64,000 nt of DNA, taken from the NCBI GenBank assembly GCA_938082375.1, contig CALKCJ010000021.1, forward strand, positions 1 through 64,000. The letters run 5' to 3'. The first letter of the stretch is position 1. Every line of letters begins with the position of its first letter. Of this stretch, positions 20,410-32,325 are shown piece by piece. This stretch comes from an uncultured Thermomicrobiaceae bacterium. Lineage in GTDB: Bacteria; Chloroflexota; Chloroflexia; Thermomicrobiales; Thermomicrobiaceae. The notes beneath the pieces were generated by a model. The model was given only the letters and a program-made list of their open reading frames with translations, searched no databases and was not told the DNA's origin. The position numbers were made by a program, and so were the translations under genes.

Positions 20410-21015
20410 TTGAACGGCGCAGCAGCATCGGGAAACGACGCGTCTAGCCACCCACACCAGGACGGAGGAGCGAAGGCGAGCTCAACAGTGCGCTTCCTCG
20501 GCGTCCTTGTGGGCGTTCTCCTCGTCGGCGGTCTCACCGGCCTCTACATCTGGATGACCTTGAACGATGTGCTGGAGGGACGAGCAGGCGTGAAACAGCT
20601 CCTGGCTGCGCTGGCAGCGATCGGTGCAGGAGTATTCGCGGCCGGCGTGCACCTGCCATCGCCGGCTGGGCGAATCGACCCGAAGACGGTTCGGCAGACG
20701 CCGCCGTTCGATCGGCCGCGAGTGCGCGGGGTAGCACCGGGCGAGTACGAGGTAGTGCTGATCGCCCGGGCGTGGGCCTTCGAGCCCAACGAGATCCGCG
20801 TGCCTCGCGGCTCGATCGTCCGCTTCCGCGTCGCCAGCGCCGACGTGATCCACGGCTTCTTGATTGAAAACACCAACGTGAACGTGATGGTGATCCCTGG
20901 GCAGATCGCCGAGGTCACGGCGCGCTTCGAGCGGCCCGGCGAGTACGTCTTCCTCTGTCACGAGTACTGCGGGTTCGGGCATCACCAGATGTTCGGGAAG
21001 GTGATCGTCGAATGA
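20410..21015 (+). CDS. cbaB: Cytochrome ba3-type oxidase subunit II
   Basis: About 200 residues, the CuA-bearing subunit that takes electrons from cytochrome c. Two hydrophobic segments (residues about 29-49 and 60-80) precede a periplasmic cupredoxin domain. The RIDPKTVRQTPPF linker and the EPNEIRVPRGS block closely follow the Thermus ba3 subunit II. All CuA ligands are visible: His in DVIHGF, then FLCHEYCGFGHHQM, giving two Cys, His and Met, with Glu where the Thermus enzyme has Gln. The start is uncertain: TTG at 20410 has no good ribosome site and sits beside a hairpin, while GTG at 20488 would remove part of the N-terminus. It overlaps subunit I by four bases. Confidence 0.9.
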   Translation: MNGAAASGNDASSHPHQDGGAKASSTVRFLGVLVGVLLVGGLTGLYIWMTLNDVLEGRAGVKQLLAALAAIGAGVFAAGVHLPSPAGRIDPKTVRQTPPFDRPRVRGVAPGEYEVVLIARAWAFEPNEIRVPRGSIVRFRVASADVIHGFLIENTNVNVMVIPGQIAEVTARFERPGEYVFLCHEYCGFGHHQMFGKVIVE

Positions 21016-22694
21016 GCAGCATCGCGCGACCCGCCGAAGTAGGGCATATCGAGGCTGGAGAGACGATCTATCTGGCCGAGCAGCTCTGGCCAATCCGCGG
21101 CCAGCTCTTCCTGGGGCTTCTCGGCCTGGCTCTCGGCGGCTACATGGGCCTGCTCCAGGCGCTTGAGCGCATCGGCATTAACCTCTATTCCGCGCACTTG
21201 CTGAAGAGCTACTACCAGGGGCTGACCATCCACGGCATGTTGCTAGCCTTCCTTTTCACGTTTTCCTTCTCAAACAGTTTCCTCTCGTTGACAACGATCC
21301 GCGGGTTTCAGCGCCCGCTGGCCAGCATCTCGCTCGCTCATGGGGCCTTCTTGACGATGCTCGCTGGCACGGTGCTCGCCGCTTTCGCTACCCTGACCAA
21401 CCAGGCTACGGTGCTCTTCACCTTCTACGCCCCCCTGAAGGCCAGCTCGCTCTTCTATCTCGGCGCCGTGTTCCTTGTCCTCTCGACCTGGCTGACTTCG
21501 GCGAACCAGCTCCTGACGCTCCGGGCCTGGCGTCGCGAGCACCCAGGCGAGCCGATCCCGTTGCTCGGCTTCGTCTCGGTCGTCACCTACCTGATGTGGG
21601 ATCTCGCCTCGGTCGGCGTCGCCATCCTCGTTGTCGTCTTCCTGCTCCCGTGGTCGCTGGGCATCCTGAGCAGCGTCGACCCGCAGTTCGAGCTCGTGCT
21701 CTTCTGGTTCACCGGACACCCCATCGTCTACTTCTGGCTGCTGCCAGCCTATGTCTCCTGGTACCTGCTGATTCCGGCCCAGGTCGGCGGCCGGCTCTTC
21801 AGCGATGACCTGACGCGCTTCGTCTTCCTGCTCTTCCTCATACCCTCGACGCCGACCGGGCTACACCACCAGTTCACCGACCCTGGCCTACCCAGAGCCA
21901 TGAAGACAGTTCACCTCTTTACGACCTTCGCGGTCGTCTACCCGAGCTTTATCACGGCCTTCACCGTGATGGCCGCGCTGGAATGGGGTGGCCGGGCGCG
22001 CGGCGCTCGGGGTCTCCTCGGCTGGATCCGGGCGCTGCCCTGGAAGGATCCGAGCGTCACCGCTCAGCTCCTGGCCATGTTGGTCTTTACCCTCGGCGGG
22101 GCTACCGGCATTGTCAATGCCAGTTACAGCGTTAACCTTGTCGTCCACAACACCGCGTTCGTCCCTGGCCACTTCCACATGACGGTCGGCACAACTGTGG
22201 CGCTGACCGCGATGGGTGTCTGCTACTGGCTGATCCCCTTCATCTCCGGACGCGAGCTCTGGGGTCGGCGGCTGGCGCTCGCGCAAGCTTGGCTGCGGGC
22301 GATCGGCATGCTGATCTTCGCCCGCGGCCAGATCGCCGGCGGCCTCAGCGGCATGCCGCGCCGCACGGCGATCGGTGACGCCGCCTATCTCGGTCTGTTC
22401 AAGTGGTCGCTCGATAACTGGCTAACGGCCATCGGTGGCATAGTGATGACGACGAGCGGCTTGCTGTTCTTCGTGGTCGTGCTCGGGACGCTCTTCTTCT
22501 CCCGCCCACTCACCGAGCCGATCGAGATCCCGGTAGCCGAAGTTGTCCATAGCGCCGGTGAGCGCTGGCCACTCTTCGACCGGCTCAGCCTGTGGTTCTT
22601 GATCGCGGTTGGGCTGGTTGTGGTGGCCTACGGCCCGGTGATCCTCGGCTACCTGCCGCTCAACTCGGTCTCGCCACCGATCAAGGTGTACTGA
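21012..22694 (+). CDS. cbaA: Cytochrome ba3-type (B-family) oxidase subunit I
   Basis: A 560-residue heme-copper oxidase core with about 13 membrane helices; the ATG overlaps the subunit II stop as ATGA. It reduces O2 to water and pumps protons. The low-spin heme His lies in LTIHGMLL. CuB ligands are His in WFTGHPIVYFWLLPAY, including the Tyr of the cross-link, and the pair in TGLHHQF. The high-spin heme and last His lie in PGHFHMTVGT. The absence of the A-family D-channel motifs and the close resemblance to Thermus ba3 mark it as B-family, usually favoured under low oxygen. A CtaG-like assembly factor is at 31.4 kb. Confidence 0.95.
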   Translation: MSSIARPAEVGHIEAGETIYLAEQLWPIRGQLFLGLLGLALGGYMGLLQALERIGINLYSAHLLKSYYQGLTIHGMLLAFLFTFSFSNSFLSLTTIRGFQRPLASISLAHGAFLTMLAGTVLAAFATLTNQATVLFTFYAPLKASSLFYLGAVFLVLSTWLTSANQLLTLRAWRREHPGEPIPLLGFVSVVTYLMWDLASVGVAILVVVFLLPWSLGILSSVDPQFELVLFWFTGHPIVYFWLLPAYVSWYLLIPAQVGGRLFSDDLTRFVFLLFLIPSTPTGLHHQFTDPGLPRAMKTVHLFTTFAVVYPSFITAFTVMAALEWGGRARGARGLLGWIRALPWKDPSVTAQLLAMLVFTLGGATGIVNASYSVNLVVHNTAFVPGHFHMTVGTTVALTAMGVCYWLIPFISGRELWGRRLALAQAWLRAIGMLIFARGQIAGGLSGMPRRTAIGDAAYLGLFKWSLDNWLTAIGGIVMTTSGLLFFVVVLGTLFFSRPLTEPIEIPVAEVVHSAGERWPLFDRLSLWFLIAVGLVVVAYGPVILGYLPLNSVSPPIKVY

Positions 22695-25194: not shown

Positions 25195-26107
25195 TCACCG
25201 GTTGAGCCAGATCGGGTTCGACCAAGCACACTCGCCAGCGGCGTTGACGACCGTTATGCGGCAGTACGAGCCGAGAAACGGCTCGTGCGCACAGTGCCAT
25301 TCGGTCAGCTGGTGGCCGTGGATGTGGGGGGTCCTGCGCCCCGAACCGCTGACGAAGATCGAGCGTGCTGGCGAGCACTGGATCACGAGCTGGCTATCCT
25401 CGATGCGGATGTCGTAGATCGGCGGCCCCTGGCTCGTGTAGTAAGCCCCCGTCTTCAGCGCTTCCAGGAGCGCGTCTGGCTCCAGATGCTCGGCTCGCAC
25501 CCAGACCCAGGCGCCAAAGCTATCTGGTCGCTCGTCTTTGAAGTGCGCGTCGTCGGCCCCAAATGCGCTCAGCCGCCGCCCCTCGGAGAGCAGGAGATCG
25601 GCCAGGTACCCGCTCTCTCCGCGATCGTTGTGCATGGCGCCCCTCTCGTTGAACACTTCGACCGCATGCGCCGCTCCGATGCTGCGCGCCTCATCAATGG
25701 TCAGGCAGTACCAGGCCGGGTGTGCCAGGCCCACGAACGCGCCGACCTCAGCCGCGCGGGCGGCCAGCTCTGGGCCCGACTCGCGGGGCGCAATGGCGCG
25801 AAGTCGCGTGGCAGGCCCACCGCCAGGATGTGCCAGCGCTCGCCGGTACCCAAGCTGGCGTGTGCAACTCGACGCCCAGAAGGGTGGTGAAATCCGACCT
25901 GCGCAGGCGGGTCGTATCGGTGATCGGAAAGCCGTACTGCTGCAGGAAGTGGTCGGTCACGGCGATGAAGTCATACCCCTGGCGACGATACAGCTCAACG
26001 ACCTGCTTCCCCCTGCCGACCTCGACTCCTGCGCTCATCATGGCCTCCGAGTCGCCGCGGTTCCCGACAACGAACGCGAGTCGATGGCCGCTTGTATTGA
26101 CAGGCAT
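25195..26107 (-). pseudogene. PHP-domain metal-dependent phosphoesterase, broken by two frameshifts
   Basis: The first part, from ATG 26107, contains YRRQGYDFIAVTDHF and LLGVELHTP, the typical PHP strands with metal-binding Asp-His. The frame is lost near 25854, where LGTGERWHILAVGLPRDFAP continues in the next frame, and lost again near 25791, after which ESGPELAARAAEVGAFVGLAHPAWYCL runs to the stop at 25195. Adding one base at each point restores a continuous protein of about 300 residues. The very N-terminus lacks the expected HxH motif in this frame, so a further lesion or a different start is possible. Members cleave phosphate esters with two or three metal ions. It may be a young pseudogene or the result of base-calling errors. 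Confidence 0.8.
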
Positions 26108-26125
26108 CGATATATGTGGTAGCCT
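26097..26125 (+). promoter_or_regulatory. arsR promoter with operator half-site
   Basis: TTGACA at 26097-26102 and TAGCCT at 26120-26125 are 17 bases apart. The spacer carries ATCGATATA (26106-26114), the same nine bases as each arm of the palindrome at 26530-26553, so this is a plausible self-repression site. Confidence 0.55.
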
Positions 26126-26149
26126 GCAGATAGTGAAGGAGAGCCGGTT

Positions 26150-26488
26150 GTGGTTCGATCGTGCTGCAGCATTCCGGAACCCGAGACACCGGAGAGCTCC
26201 CAGCGACTGGCGCGCATCGCTGAGCTGGCTCGCGCGTTGGCCGATCCGACCCGGCTCACGATCCTCGAACGGATCGCCTCCAGCCCACAACCCGTCTGCG
26301 TCTGTCATCTCACTGACCGCCTCCCGGTGAGCCAGCCGACCGTGTCTCATCACCTGCGGATCCTGCGCGAGGCCGCGCTCGTCGTCGCCGAGCGACGAGG
26401 AACCTGGGCCTACTACGAAGTGACCGACTTCGGCCGCGCCACGCTGCAGGCCCTGTCTCACCTGGTTCTGGAACCGGTGACCCGCTGA
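26150..26488 (+). CDS. arsR: ArsR-family metalloid-sensing repressor
   Basis: A 112-residue winged-helix repressor of the ArsR/SmtB family; the GTG at 26150 follows AAGGAGAG. The helix-turn-helix is LPVSQPTVSHHLRILREAALV. VCVCHL in the preceding helix supplies the Cys-x-Cys pair of the classical As(III)/Sb(III) sensor site (the ELCVCDL type), and another CysCys pair lies at residues 5-6. It should repress its targets and let go when As(III) binds the cysteines. Its likely operators lie in its own promoter and before the downstream flavoprotein gene. No arsenite pump, ArsC or ArsM gene is nearby. Confidence 0.9.
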   Translation: MVRSCCSIPEPETPESSQRLARIAELARALADPTRLTILERIASSPQPVCVCHLTDRLPVSQPTVSHHLRILREAALVVAERRGTWAYYEVTDFGRATLQALSHLVLEPVTR

Positions 26489-26529
26489 TCTCGCGCACGG
26501 CTGCGAGGAAGGAGCCTTCATGCGGCCGT

Positions 26530-26553
26530 TTATATCGATGATCATCGATATAA
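26530..26553. promoter_or_regulatory. 24-bp perfect palindrome, probable ArsR operator
   Basis: TTATATCGATGA at 26530-26541 is followed directly by its exact reverse complement, TCATCGATATAA, at 26542-26553. Its arms contain the ATCGATATA word of the arsR promoter. It stands between arsR and the flavoprotein gene, about 180 bases before the latter, and may cover a -10 element (TATAAC). Confidence 0.7.
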
Positions 26554-26730
26554 CCGCCACTGAACTGGTGACCTCGCGCCAGGCGCCGCGGCGCGAGCTC
26601 GCTGGCCTGACTGCTGACGGCGACGCACCTGCCTTGAGCAGTAACGGCTTCGGTTCTCGCGGCCGTGCCCCGCCTGCCCCACCATGTCCGACCACGAGCG
26701 TGCGACCAACAAGTTGGCAGGAGTCCTAAA

Positions 26731-28083
26731 GTGGGAGAAATGAGCTCGTATGGAAAGCAGGGGGCGTCACTGCCGGTCGTCGTGATCGGGGCCGGGCCGG
26801 TCGGGCTGGCGGCGGCCGCGCACCTCGCCGCGCGCAGGCAGCCGTTCGTGCTGCTGGAGGCGCAGCCGGCAGTGGGCTGGTCGGCCCGACAGTGGCAGCA
26901 CGTGCAATTGTTTTCTCCCTGGCAATACAACGTCGACCCGCTGGCGGCCGAGCTCTTGCGCCAGACCGGGTGGGTCATGCCTGCGGCTGACGTCCACCCG
27001 ACGGGGAGAGACTTGGTAGAGCGATACCTGGAGCCGCTGGCGGTGCATCCGGCCATCGCGCCGCACCTGCGCCTGCGGCACCGTGTCGTCGCGGTCGCGC
27101 GTCAGGGATGCGACCGGTTGGTGACGTTCAACCGCTCGGTAGCTCCGTTCCTGGTGCGGGTGGAAACGCCGGCCGGTGAGAATGACCTGCTCGCGCGGGC
27201 GGTGATCGACGCCTCGGGAGGCGTGCCGAACCCGCTCGGCGCCAGCGGGCTCCCGGCGATCGGCGAGCTGGAACTGCAGCACCGGATCTTCTACGGCATC
27301 CCTGACGTGCTCGGCCGGCACCGCGCGCGCTACGCCGGCCGGCGGGTGCTCGTCGTCGGCTCCGGGCATTCGGCCTTCAACGTGCTGCTCGACCTCATCC
27401 AGTTAGCGGTGGAGGCACCGGGTACAGACGTGCTCTGGGCCGTGCGGCGGCACTCGCTGGCTGGACGGTTCGGTGGTGGCGAGCGCGACGAGTTGCCGGA
27501 GCGTGGCCGGCTGGGCCGGCGGGCACAGGCCATCGTCGAACAGGGACTCGTCCAGCTGGTGACCGGCTTCCGGTTGACCCGGCTGGAGGAGACTCCAGAA
27601 GGGGTGGTCGCCATCGGCGAAGGGAAGCGCTTGCCGCCGGTCGACGAGATCGTGGCGGCGACCGGCTTCCGGCCCGACCTGACGCCGCTGCGCGAGCTGC
27701 GGCTGTCCCTCGACCCGATCACGGAGGCGCCGGTGGTTCTGGCCCCCTTGATCGATCCAAACGTGCACAGTTGTGGCACTGTGCCACCGCACGGGTACAA
27801 GGAGTTGCGACACCCGGAGGAGAACTTTTTCCTCCTTGGGGCCAAGAGCTACGGACGCGCGCCAACGTTCCTGATGCGCACCGGCTACGAACAGGCGCGC
27901 TCGGTCGTCGCGGCGCTTGCGGGTGATTGGGAAGCCGCCGGGCGAGTCGAGCTGGAGTTACCGCACACTGGCGTCTGCTCCGGCCCGGCGGCTGCCGATG
28001 GCGAGGCGACTTGCTGCAAACCGGCGGCCAGGCGGGAGCCGGTACTTATCCAGCCAGCTGTGCGCAGCCGCGCCTGTTGCTAA
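26731..28083 (+). CDS. FAD/NAD(P)-binding monooxygenase-like flavoprotein with Cys-rich tail (ArsO-like)
   Basis: A 450-residue flavoprotein. GTG 26731 is chosen because AGGAG lies seven bases upstream; an ATG at 26740 is an alternative. The FAD site is VVVIGAGPVGLAAAAHLA near the N-terminus and the NAD(P) site is VLVVGSGHSAFNVLLDL near the middle, the arrangement of flavin monooxygenases. VAATGFRPDL and the following C-terminal block fit as well. The tail after residue 410 is unusual: it holds six Cys (GVCSGP, ATCCK, SRACC) and could bind As(III) or another soft metal. Position behind arsR and a shared operator suggest a role in arsenic resistance similar to ArsO. This role is inferred. Confidence 0.8.
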   Translation: MGEMSSYGKQGASLPVVVIGAGPVGLAAAAHLAARRQPFVLLEAQPAVGWSARQWQHVQLFSPWQYNVDPLAAELLRQTGWVMPAADVHPTGRDLVERYLEPLAVHPAIAPHLRLRHRVVAVARQGCDRLVTFNRSVAPFLVRVETPAGENDLLARAVIDASGGVPNPLGASGLPAIGELELQHRIFYGIPDVLGRHRARYAGRRVLVVGSGHSAFNVLLDLIQLAVEAPGTDVLWAVRRHSLAGRFGGGERDELPERGRLGRRAQAIVEQGLVQLVTGFRLTRLEETPEGVVAIGEGKRLPPVDEIVAATGFRPDLTPLRELRLSLDPITEAPVVLAPLIDPNVHSCGTVPPHGYKELRHPEENFFLLGAKSYGRAPTFLMRTGYEQARSVVAALAGDWEAAGRVELELPHTGVCSGPAAADGEATCCKPAARREPVLIQPAVRSRACC

Positions 28084-28166: not shown

Positions 28167-28427
28167 ATGAACTGGAATCCCCTGCTCTCCGACGTAATAG
28201 TGGAGAGCTATCTCGCTGAGCGACGCGAGCGTGCAGCGCGAACGCAACTATTGCGCTCTGAACGAGCGAGGGATCATCTGCCGCCACAACGGGATACTCG
28301 TCACCTGGGCCGGTTACGGGGCAGCATCACTGTGGTGCTCGCGTTGCTGGGTACCTGGGTTGCCGGCCGGCGGTTCTTGTCCGGGCCGGCTATGGAGACC
28401 TCGTGCTCCTGCTGCTCGACATGCTGA
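28167..28427 (+). CDS. Small putative membrane protein
   Basis: 86 residues from ATG 28167, with AAGAGGG six bases upstream. A basic, charged N-terminal half (residues 14-50) is followed by one hydrophobic segment, ITVVLALLGTWVAG. The last ten residues hold four Cys in SCSCCSTC. It resembles the many short unannotated single-pass proteins of this lineage, but no family was recognised. It follows the flavoprotein gene by 83 bases on the same strand, and both end in Cys clusters, so they may belong together. Confidence 0.5.
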   Translation: MNWNPLLSDVIVESYLAERRERAARTQLLRSERARDHLPPQRDTRHLGRLRGSITVVLALLGTWVAGRRFLSGPAMETSCSCCSTC

Positions 28428-28698: not shown

Positions 28699-28773
28699 GC
28701 CAAGGTCCTCCGGCACCTGATCCCAGATTGGAAGCCCGTGGCTACGAGTTGACCGCTGTGCCAATTGGAGGAC

Positions 28774-29070
28774 GTGATCGACAGTGTGTCGAGCCATGTT
28801 GTGGTTTCACTTGGGGTTGCGAGCGGCAAGCCGCGCATCGCCGGGCACCGGATCACCGTGCAGGACATCGTGGTCTGGTATGAGCGACTCGGCGTGTGCG
28901 CTGACGAGATTGCCAGCGAGTACGGCCATTCACTGGCCGACGTGTACGCGGCGCTCGCCTACTACGACCACCGCGAGGAGATCGACCAGGCCATCAGGAC
29001 CGACGAAGCCCTCGTCGCCGAGCTCCGTCGCGAGACCCCGTCCAAAGTGAGGGCCAAGCTCAGTGGCTGA
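28774..29070 (+). CDS. DUF433 protein, putative antitoxin
   Basis: A protein of about 98 residues. The core GKPRIAGHRITVQDIVVWYERLG is the signature of the DUF433 winged-helix family, and ADVYAALAYYDHREEID completes it. DUF433 genes are commonly followed by DUF5615 (PIN-like) genes and are thought to be antitoxin and toxin. That is the order here: the next gene overlaps by eight bases. The start is uncertain; GGAGG at 28766-28770 precedes GTG 28774 closely, and another GTG follows at 28786. This half of the pair looks intact. Confidence 0.8.
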   Translation: MIDSVSSHVVVSLGVASGKPRIAGHRITVQDIVVWYERLGVCADEIASEYGHSLADVYAALAYYDHREEIDQAIRTDEALVAELRRETPSKVRAKLSG

Positions 29071-29371
29071 GCAGCTAAAGCTCTATCCGGACGAGCATGT
29101 ACCGCGGGCGGTCGCTGAAGGGCTGCGCCGCCGCGGGATCGATGTACTGCGTGCCCAGCAGGCCGACATGCTGGACGCGGCTGACGAAGAGCACTTGGCA
29201 TTGGCGCTGCGTGGGGGGTCGTGTGATCGTGACCCAGGCCGCGGACGTCCTCCGTCTGCACGTGTCGGAACGAGCGCACGCCTGGCCTGTACCCGGCTTG
29301 CGGCGCTTCCCACCGTGCTCGCCACACGGCAGGGCACGAGGCGCATGAGCTTTCGCCGGTTGACCTTTTGA
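29063..29371 (+). pseudogene. DUF5615 PIN-like toxin, frameshifted at a G run
   Basis: The gene starts with a GTG overlapping DUF433. KLYPDEHVPRAVAEGLRRRGIDVL and DEEHLALAL are typical DUF5615 blocks with the first acidic catalytic residues. At the six-G run 29213-29218 the frame is lost. With one G fewer it continues as GRVIVTQAADVLRLH, the expected strand with VTQD-like motif (here VTQA, so one acidic residue is replaced). Homology fades again beyond about 29270. The toxin is therefore probably inactive, unless the run was miscounted. Confidence 0.75.
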
Positions 29372-31437: not shown

Positions 31438-32325
31438 TCAGAGCGCGTGGCGGGCATGCCGCTCAACGAGCGTCGCCTGGCGGTGCTCCTCTTCGCGTAA
31501 CCAGCGGACTAGGAGGGTCAGAATAACTCCCATGTAAGCGAATCCACCACCGACCCACATGATCAGTCCAGCGACCTGCTGGTCGGTCAGCGCAGTCATC
31601 CCCCAAGGCATGGAGACGCTGGCATAGAACGGGTAGATAACCCGGTCAGCCAGCGTGATGATCGCACCGATGCTCATGCTGACCACCATCGTCGCAAAGA
31701 CGGCGGCGATGGCCCAGAGCGCCGGCAGCTTGTGGTGGCGAGGCACTGGGTCGATGATCGGCCACCAGAAGAGCAGGGCAGTACCAAAGAAGCTCAGGTG
31801 TTCGAGGTCATGGACGGCGGTGCTGTAGAGTGCCGCCTCGTAGAAACGAGGGAAGTGCCAAAACACGATCGAGGCGTTCGCCAACATCGTCACCGTTAGC
31901 GGCGCGGTCAGCACGGTCAGGCCAGCGCGAACCCACGGCGGTCGGAGCACCACACGCAGCACCGCCCCCACACGTTCAGCAGGCAAGCCACGCAGCACAA
32001 GCTGCACCGGTCTCCCGAGCAGAATCAGGGGCGCGGTAATCTGGATCAGAACGAGATGCTGGAGCATGTGCATCGTGAGCAGCTCGTCATTGTACAAATC
32101 GAGCGGGCCCATGAGCGCCAGCGCTGCCGAAGCCAGTCCGGCGTAGAAGGAGGCCGCCTGCCAGAGCGGCGGTCGCGGCCTTCCCCGGAGGATCAGAGAG
32201 CGCAGCGCCGCACTGTAGACGAGAGCAGCGCCAAGTAGGGCGACCAGCACCGGTGGATTCCAGCTCCAGGCGGCCCAGAAGGGGCCCGTAGCGCCGCCGT
32301 GGAGCAGAGGCAAAAGGCTCACCAT
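31438..32325 (-). CDS. ctaG: Caa3/CtaG-type cytochrome c oxidase assembly membrane protein
   Basis: A 295-residue membrane protein with about seven helices. The conserved histidines of the Caa3_CtaG family are present: MHMLQHLVLIQITAPLILLG, FWHFPRFYEAAL and HDLEHLSFFGTALLFWWP. Bacillus CtaG is needed to form active caa3 oxidase, probably through copper delivery. Here the only oxidase in sight is the ba3 type at 20.4-22.7 kb. The gene runs against the Excalibur gene and away from the permease gene at 32510. Confidence 0.88.
   Translation of the reverse strand: MVSLLPLLHGGATGPFWAAWSWNPPVLVALLGAALVYSAALRSLILRGRPRPPLWQAASFYAGLASAALALMGPLDLYNDELLTMHMLQHLVLIQITAPLILLGRPVQLVLRGLPAERVGAVLRVVLRPPWVRAGLTVLTAPLTVTMLANASIVFWHFPRFYEAALYSTAVHDLEHLSFFGTALLFWWPIIDPVPRHHKLPALWAIAAVFATMVVSMSIGAIITLADRVIYPFYASVSMPWGMTALTDQQVAGLIMWVGGGFAYMGVILTLLVRWLREEEHRQATLVERHARHAL

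Follow-up and report, generated by a model that had tools for sequence, protein, structure and literature searches.

How might a bacterium handle arsenic with a repressor, a flavoprotein and a small cysteine-tailed protein, and no pump? The question is raised by a locus in a 64-kb stretch of DNA, hereafter the window, which belongs to a 99.97% complete Thermomicrobiaceae genome (G000). We compared this locus with those of three congeners, G001, G002 (81% complete) and G003, and with more distant relatives. The original prediction described the locus as a compact arsenic detoxification unit based on a monooxygenase. Its arsR and flavoprotein genes, possibly together with the gene for the small Cys-tailed protein, would form an arsenical-responsive chromosomal transcription unit (Table 1), and we hold it to be very probable that this unit has a role in arsenic metabolism.

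Table 1. Features of the arsR-flavoprotein locus, with positions in the window.
Feature	Position	Strand	Details and basis
arsR promoter with embedded putative ArsR operator ATTGAC-N4-ATCGAT (26096-26111)	26096..26125	+	6-4-6 spacing identical in nine family genomes
Promoter boxes of arsR: -35 TTGACA, 17-bp spacer, -10-like TAGCCT	26097-26102 (-35); 26120-26125 (-10-like)	+
arsR, ArsR/SmtB repressor, 112 aa, Cys5-Cys6 and Cys50-Val-Cys52	26150..26488	+	NF033788, HTH_5, Cys pattern in relatives
arsR-flavoprotein intergenic region	26489..26730	+	internal ORF 26520-26729 not coding
Perfect 24-bp palindrome, core ATCGAT-N4-ATCGAT (26534-26549), putative ArsR operator	26530..26553	strand-neutral	conserved in nine genomes
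Flavoprotein, FAD/NAD(P)-binding, ArsR-linked, 450 aa	26731..28083	+	C348 (HSCGTVPPHG), C416 (LPxTGVC), tail C428, C429, C449, C450
Small protein, 86 aa: conserved N-terminus, hydrophobic stretch, terminal CSCCSTC	28167..28427	+	directly 3' of the flavoprotein gene in G000, G001 and G003

The flavoprotein gene starts with a GTG at 26731, downstream of an AGGAG, with the ATG at 26740 as an alternative start. The open reading frame that fills most of the intergenic region spans the palindrome and has a good ribosome site; we considered it as a leader peptide and rejected it, because codon-position differences among the four congeners are flat (6/6/5, for example). Rfam gave no match between 25.9 and 28.9 kb, and neither a consensus promoter nor a forward-strand terminator was found at the locus. 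Divergent from arsR, on the minus strand, a PHP-domain-like gene (25198-26008) is broken by a frameshift (frames -2 and -1); its 5' end has no match, and three congeners carry uninterrupted, longer reading frames of 301-399 aa. On the plus strand at 28765-29371, a DUF433 gene is followed by a DUF5615 gene in a toxin-antitoxin-like pair, the second gene having a frameshift behind codon 52 when compared with G001. Farther out lie cytochrome oxidase subunits II and I upstream (20410-22694) and the caa3 assembly factor CtaG downstream (31438-32325). CtaG and an amino-acid permease are shared downstream neighbours of the arsR-flavoprotein loci of the host family, and the genus-plus-family clade of the flavoprotein is well supported (99). 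Together, these two observations point to an old chromosomal unit.

The repressor belongs to the ArsR/SmtB family, scoring 92.3 bits on NF033788 (cut-off 55) and 51.4 on Pfam HTH_5 (cut-off 22); PADLOC matches to Csa3/CARF models are explained by the winged helix that these proteins have in common. The CVC ascribed to its As(III) site in the original prediction is present. The As(III) site of R773-type ArsR proteins consists of three cysteines in a CxCxxC motif (C32, C34 and C37), and the window protein departs from this type: it reads C50-V-C52-H-L-T55, the third cysteine being replaced by Thr55. In the Corynebacterium glutamicum type, the site is made of C15-C16 plus C55 of the other subunit. 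The N-terminal CC of the window protein aligns with C15-C16 of chain 6j0e_A, which we take to be C. glutamicum ArsR, and the third cysteine of such a site would be C50 or C52, a few residues off the C55 position. This N-terminal pair is kept in 9/9 family genomes and in most order-level ArsRs adjoining the flavoprotein. We think it likely that the site is a mixed one, in which the N-terminal CC is joined by C50 or C52. The inducer, trivalent arsenic or else antimony or an organoarsenical, would bind ArsR via the CVC and probably the N-terminal CC, and the repressor would then be released.

Where would this repressor bind? The word ATCGATATA, claimed to be shared by the two control regions, occurs exactly three times in the 64 kb, against 0.07 expected: at 26106-26114 (+), 26531-26539 (-) and 26544-26552 (+). 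The first copy sits in the spacer between the two boxes upstream of arsR, and the other two occupy the arms of TTATATCGATGATCATCGATATAA, which is indeed a perfect 24-bp palindrome before the flavoprotein gene. As judged by their bases and spacing, the arsR-promoter site and the palindrome are one putative 6-4-6 operator. Nine host-family genomes keep ATCGAT-N4-ATCGAT at the same position in the arsR-flavoprotein interval, 177-207 bp before the flavoprotein coding match, with 12 of 12 core bases in six genomes and 11 of 12 in three. Shuffled intervals matched 7.6 bases on average, and the highest mean among 2000 shuffles was 8.8, versus the 11-12 observed. At the arsR promoter, ATTGAC-N4-(A/T/G)TCGAT covers the -35 box in 9/9 family genomes. 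The -10-like box is weak there, and no formal sigma-70 match was called. Since the -35 box lies within the left arm of the operator, ArsR binding should block the polymerase at this site, and ArsR would thus repress its own promoter. The palindrome probably serves as the ArsR operator of the flavoprotein gene, which ArsR would hold down from there; that this site is full suggests tighter control of the flavoprotein gene.

Relatives of the flavoprotein were found in 19 other genomes of the host order (41 genomes searched; the match in G030 is a fragment) and in 132 plasmid records. The best 80 homologues of the scan, one genome per species, come from Chloroflexota, Actinomycetota, Pseudomonadota, Bacillota, Bacteroidota and Acidobacteriota. 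Of these 80 loci, 66 have an ArsR no farther than about 6 kb away, and in 51 the distance is at most 1.5 kb. When only loci with full flanks are counted, ArsR is found within 6 kb in 52 of 57, in several phyla, which bears out the expected linkage; the other five have no ArsR inside 6 kb. An MFS gene adjoins the flavoprotein gene in 25 of the 57, and 11 of the 57 have no pump-type gene within 6 kb as judged by BLAST with a limited reference set. The plasmid homologues sit beside arsR, ACR3, ArsC, ArsD/A, ArsN, ArsK or AioAB (arsenite oxidase). Ensifer adhaerens has arsR-flavoprotein-ArsK in that order with a stop/start overlap, and its MFS protein is ArsK by NCBIfam (513 bits, cut-off 400). 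Plasmid pSSFR1 of Streptomyces sp. FR-008 encodes a true ArsO (554 bits) and a flavoprotein homologue as separate genes. The window flavoprotein is a member of a widespread ars-linked family that is usually accompanied by further ars genes, and the kind of enzyme is not new. Other regulators also occur beside family members: a PadR-like regulator adjoins the gene in place of ArsR in Acetobacteraceae and some others (L051, L079, L094, L108 and L110), with an internal GCC motif in L051, L108 and L110, and in Bacillota the adjoining regulator is often MarR-like.

We then considered what kind of enzyme this is. The protein has seven cysteines, C127 and the six listed in Table 1; five of them (C416, C428, C429, C449 and C450) fall in the last 40 residues, one fewer than had been claimed. 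C348 and C416 are invariant in 49 aligned homologues, and most invariant residues lie in the enzyme core, which is highly conserved. The Cys tail itself is kept: in 78 homologues, the motif around C348 was found in 77, TG(V/L)C in 76 and the tail CC pair in 71, and cysteine accounts for 8.6% of the last 60 residues versus 0.5% of the core. A structure model (pLDDT 86.6) is confident except for residues 1-8 and 414-450, and moderately so around C348; the low confidence over residues 414-450 predicts a flexible or disordered tail.

The closest fold to this model is the bacillithiol disulfide reductase YpdA (Z 31.4, rmsd 2.4, 316 residues), followed by flavin monooxygenases and thioredoxin reductases, the latter with Z about 25. 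The protein is neither ArsO nor YpdA by the family models: it scores 58.9 bits over 211 residues on the ArsO model NF040505 (cut-off 425) and 29 bits on the YpdA model TIGR04018 (cut-off 339.9). Membership of the class-B flavin monooxygenases was rejected as well, since the fingerprint FxGxxxHxxx(Y/F/W) was found in 0 of 79 proteins. The original prediction is thus upheld in part. The detoxification unit stands, with its arsR linkage, Cys tail and conserved palindrome; the monooxygenase is not borne out, in view of the missing fingerprint and the fold closest to a thiol-disulfide reductase. Both of these findings make thiol-disulfide chemistry possible, and the flavoprotein could then be an NAD(P)H-dependent reductase of the YpdA/thioredoxin-reductase type. 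Its tail would serve as a redox shuttle by which arsenate reductase, ArsR or small thiols stay reduced while the cell is under arsenic stress, and no arsenical would be oxidised. Many homologues indeed adjoin arsC, and some trxB, in line with such a role. However, the cysteine of the YpdA motif (GGGPC/GGGPCGL) is Val or Ile wherever the motif was matched in the family (61/79 proteins), the core has no conserved CxxC pair, and the neighbours include genes for organoarsenicals (ArsK, ArsN) as well as arsC. We therefore regard a pure reductase as unlikely.

The small protein ends, as had been claimed, with four cysteines (C80, C82, C83 and C86). The Cys-rich tail is present in all copies, the N-terminus MNWNPLL is conserved and the middle evolves fast; searches of Pfam, NCBIfam and the plasmid records gave no match. 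In G002 it follows the flavoprotein gene across a contig break, the two pieces lying at contig ends, and contig C18 of the same genome carries a second, diverged copy (52% identity) about 3.5 kb from the first. Free, CC-rich small peptides resembling the flavoprotein tail were also seen near homologues in other phyla (L132, L106, L098, L103, L109 and L124). At L132, the flavoprotein is devoid of a tail and a separate upstream peptide of 77 aa, encoded 384 to 151 bp ahead of the flavoprotein match, has four CC pairs.

The absence of a pump extends beyond the locus. Neither an ACR3 above the curated cut-off nor any ArsB was found in the locus, in the 64 kb or in the whole G000 genome, and G001-G003 have no ACR3 or ArsB match whatsoever, so the original statement holds for four genomes of the genus. 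G000 also has no ArsM above cut-off. Elsewhere in this genome are three proteins that score below the cut-offs: an ArsC-like protein of the thioredoxin type (120 bits, cut-off 174), an ACR3-like SBF protein (123.5 bits, cut-off 282.8) and, on contig C55, an ArsK-like MFS protein (176.6 bits, cut-off 400), the search for the latter having covered G000 only. Because of the ArsK-like and SBF proteins, the statement that there is no dedicated exporter stands only for the canonical families. Within that scope, and going by the gene content of the assemblies, the unusual feature of the unit is that it is without the usual arsenic pump, here and throughout the genus.

Could the flavoprotein then serve a pump at a distance? 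It might be an accessory binding protein which, with the small protein, sequesters As(III) or delivers it to a pump encoded elsewhere, for instance the ArsK-like MFS protein of contig C55. That CC-rich tails also exist as free peptides is compatible with this idea; against it, the highly conserved enzyme core holds most of the invariant residues, and the three congeners lack any ACR3 or ArsB match (the search for an ArsK-like MFS covered G000 only), which makes it a rather improbable explanation. With neither pump nor arsM above cut-off in the genome, the unit might also be largely unconnected with arsenic by now, a relic in which repressor and oxidoreductase deal with some other electrophile or thiol stress. 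This seems very improbable, because operators, ArsR cysteines and tail cysteines are all kept across the family in the face of 34-38% protein divergence. All together, the arsR linkage, the Cys tail and the conserved palindrome lend good support to reading these sequences as an arsenic detoxification unit that lacks a dedicated pump, although the many homologues near a pump suggest that the enzyme may normally assist efflux.

ArsV is a flavin monooxygenase that oxidises Sb(III) and trivalent organoarsenicals and is found with the transporter ArsW. Homologues of the window flavoprotein often precede an MFS exporter of the ArsK type; the window has no MFS partner and carries the small Cys-tailed protein in its place. 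Compared by description, both are flavin enzymes of the kind seen in soil-bacterial ars operons and the role fits (PMC10080717, PMC11719878), ArsV being described in a review as oxidising methylarsenite (PMC10080717). Set beside ArsV by description, the flavoprotein family is probably this reported organoarsenical/antimonite oxidase. ArsO, another FAD/NAD(P)H flavoprotein encoded in ars operons, has similar Rossmann motifs but is shorter, at about 350 aa versus 450. Pumpless relatives of the whole unit also exist. The ars1 operon of TnARS1 from Bacillus sp. MB24 (arsR1-orf3-orf4-orf5) includes a flavoprotein monooxygenase and no pump, is induced by arsenite and makes a B. subtilis arsB mutant slightly more resistant to arsenite (PMC6920998). 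It shares with the window arsR and flavoprotein genes and the lack of a pump, ORF3/ORF4 being likened by description, but has four genes, including a GNAT acetyltransferase (PMC6920998). Another case is plasmid SAP008A of a poultry-litter Staphylococcus, where an arsR with the CVC adjoins a full-length family member (42% identity) and no other ars gene is present; there, however, the genes are convergent and the plasmid is mobile. Last, the tail recalls MerA, in which a flexible C-terminal pair of vicinal cysteines feeds a thiophilic metal to the flavoenzyme. The likeness is an analogy of working: MerA uses a redox-active pair of core cysteines to reduce Hg(II), whereas the window protein has a single invariant Cys in its core and would carry out an oxidation.

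On balance, we favour a detoxification unit that is induced by arsenicals, with trivalent arsenic being caught by the Cys tail and then oxidised by the enzyme. Once induced, the enzyme would bind FAD and NAD(P)H, and its flexible tail (TGVC...CC...CC) would capture the thiophilic trivalent arsenical and pass it on, perhaps by way of the invariant C348, to the active site, where oxidation would yield the pentavalent form, which is far less toxic. Oxidation appears to be the likeliest chemistry given what is reported for ArsV (PMC10080717, PMC11719878), and we hold this step to be somewhat better than an even bet. The small protein may hold arsenic, or pass it on, at the membrane.

We propose, as a speculation that we consider doubtful in its full form, that this flavoprotein with its MerA-like tail is the main arsenic defence of this Thermomicrobiaceae genus, converting trivalent to pentavalent arsenic with no dedicated exporter and with a genus-specific, membrane-associated Cys-tailed protein as a sink or relay. 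For the family at large, proteins so far annotated only as "FAD-dependent oxidoreductase" or "NAD(P)-binding protein" would gain a testable arsenic function, with the two invariant cysteines and the Cys tail as targets for mutation and the shared 6-4-6 operator as the object of a direct binding test. A pumpless unit that is old and chromosomal here, and that also exists separately on a small poultry-litter plasmid, offers a minimal system in which to ask whether enzymatic conversion alone protects cells.
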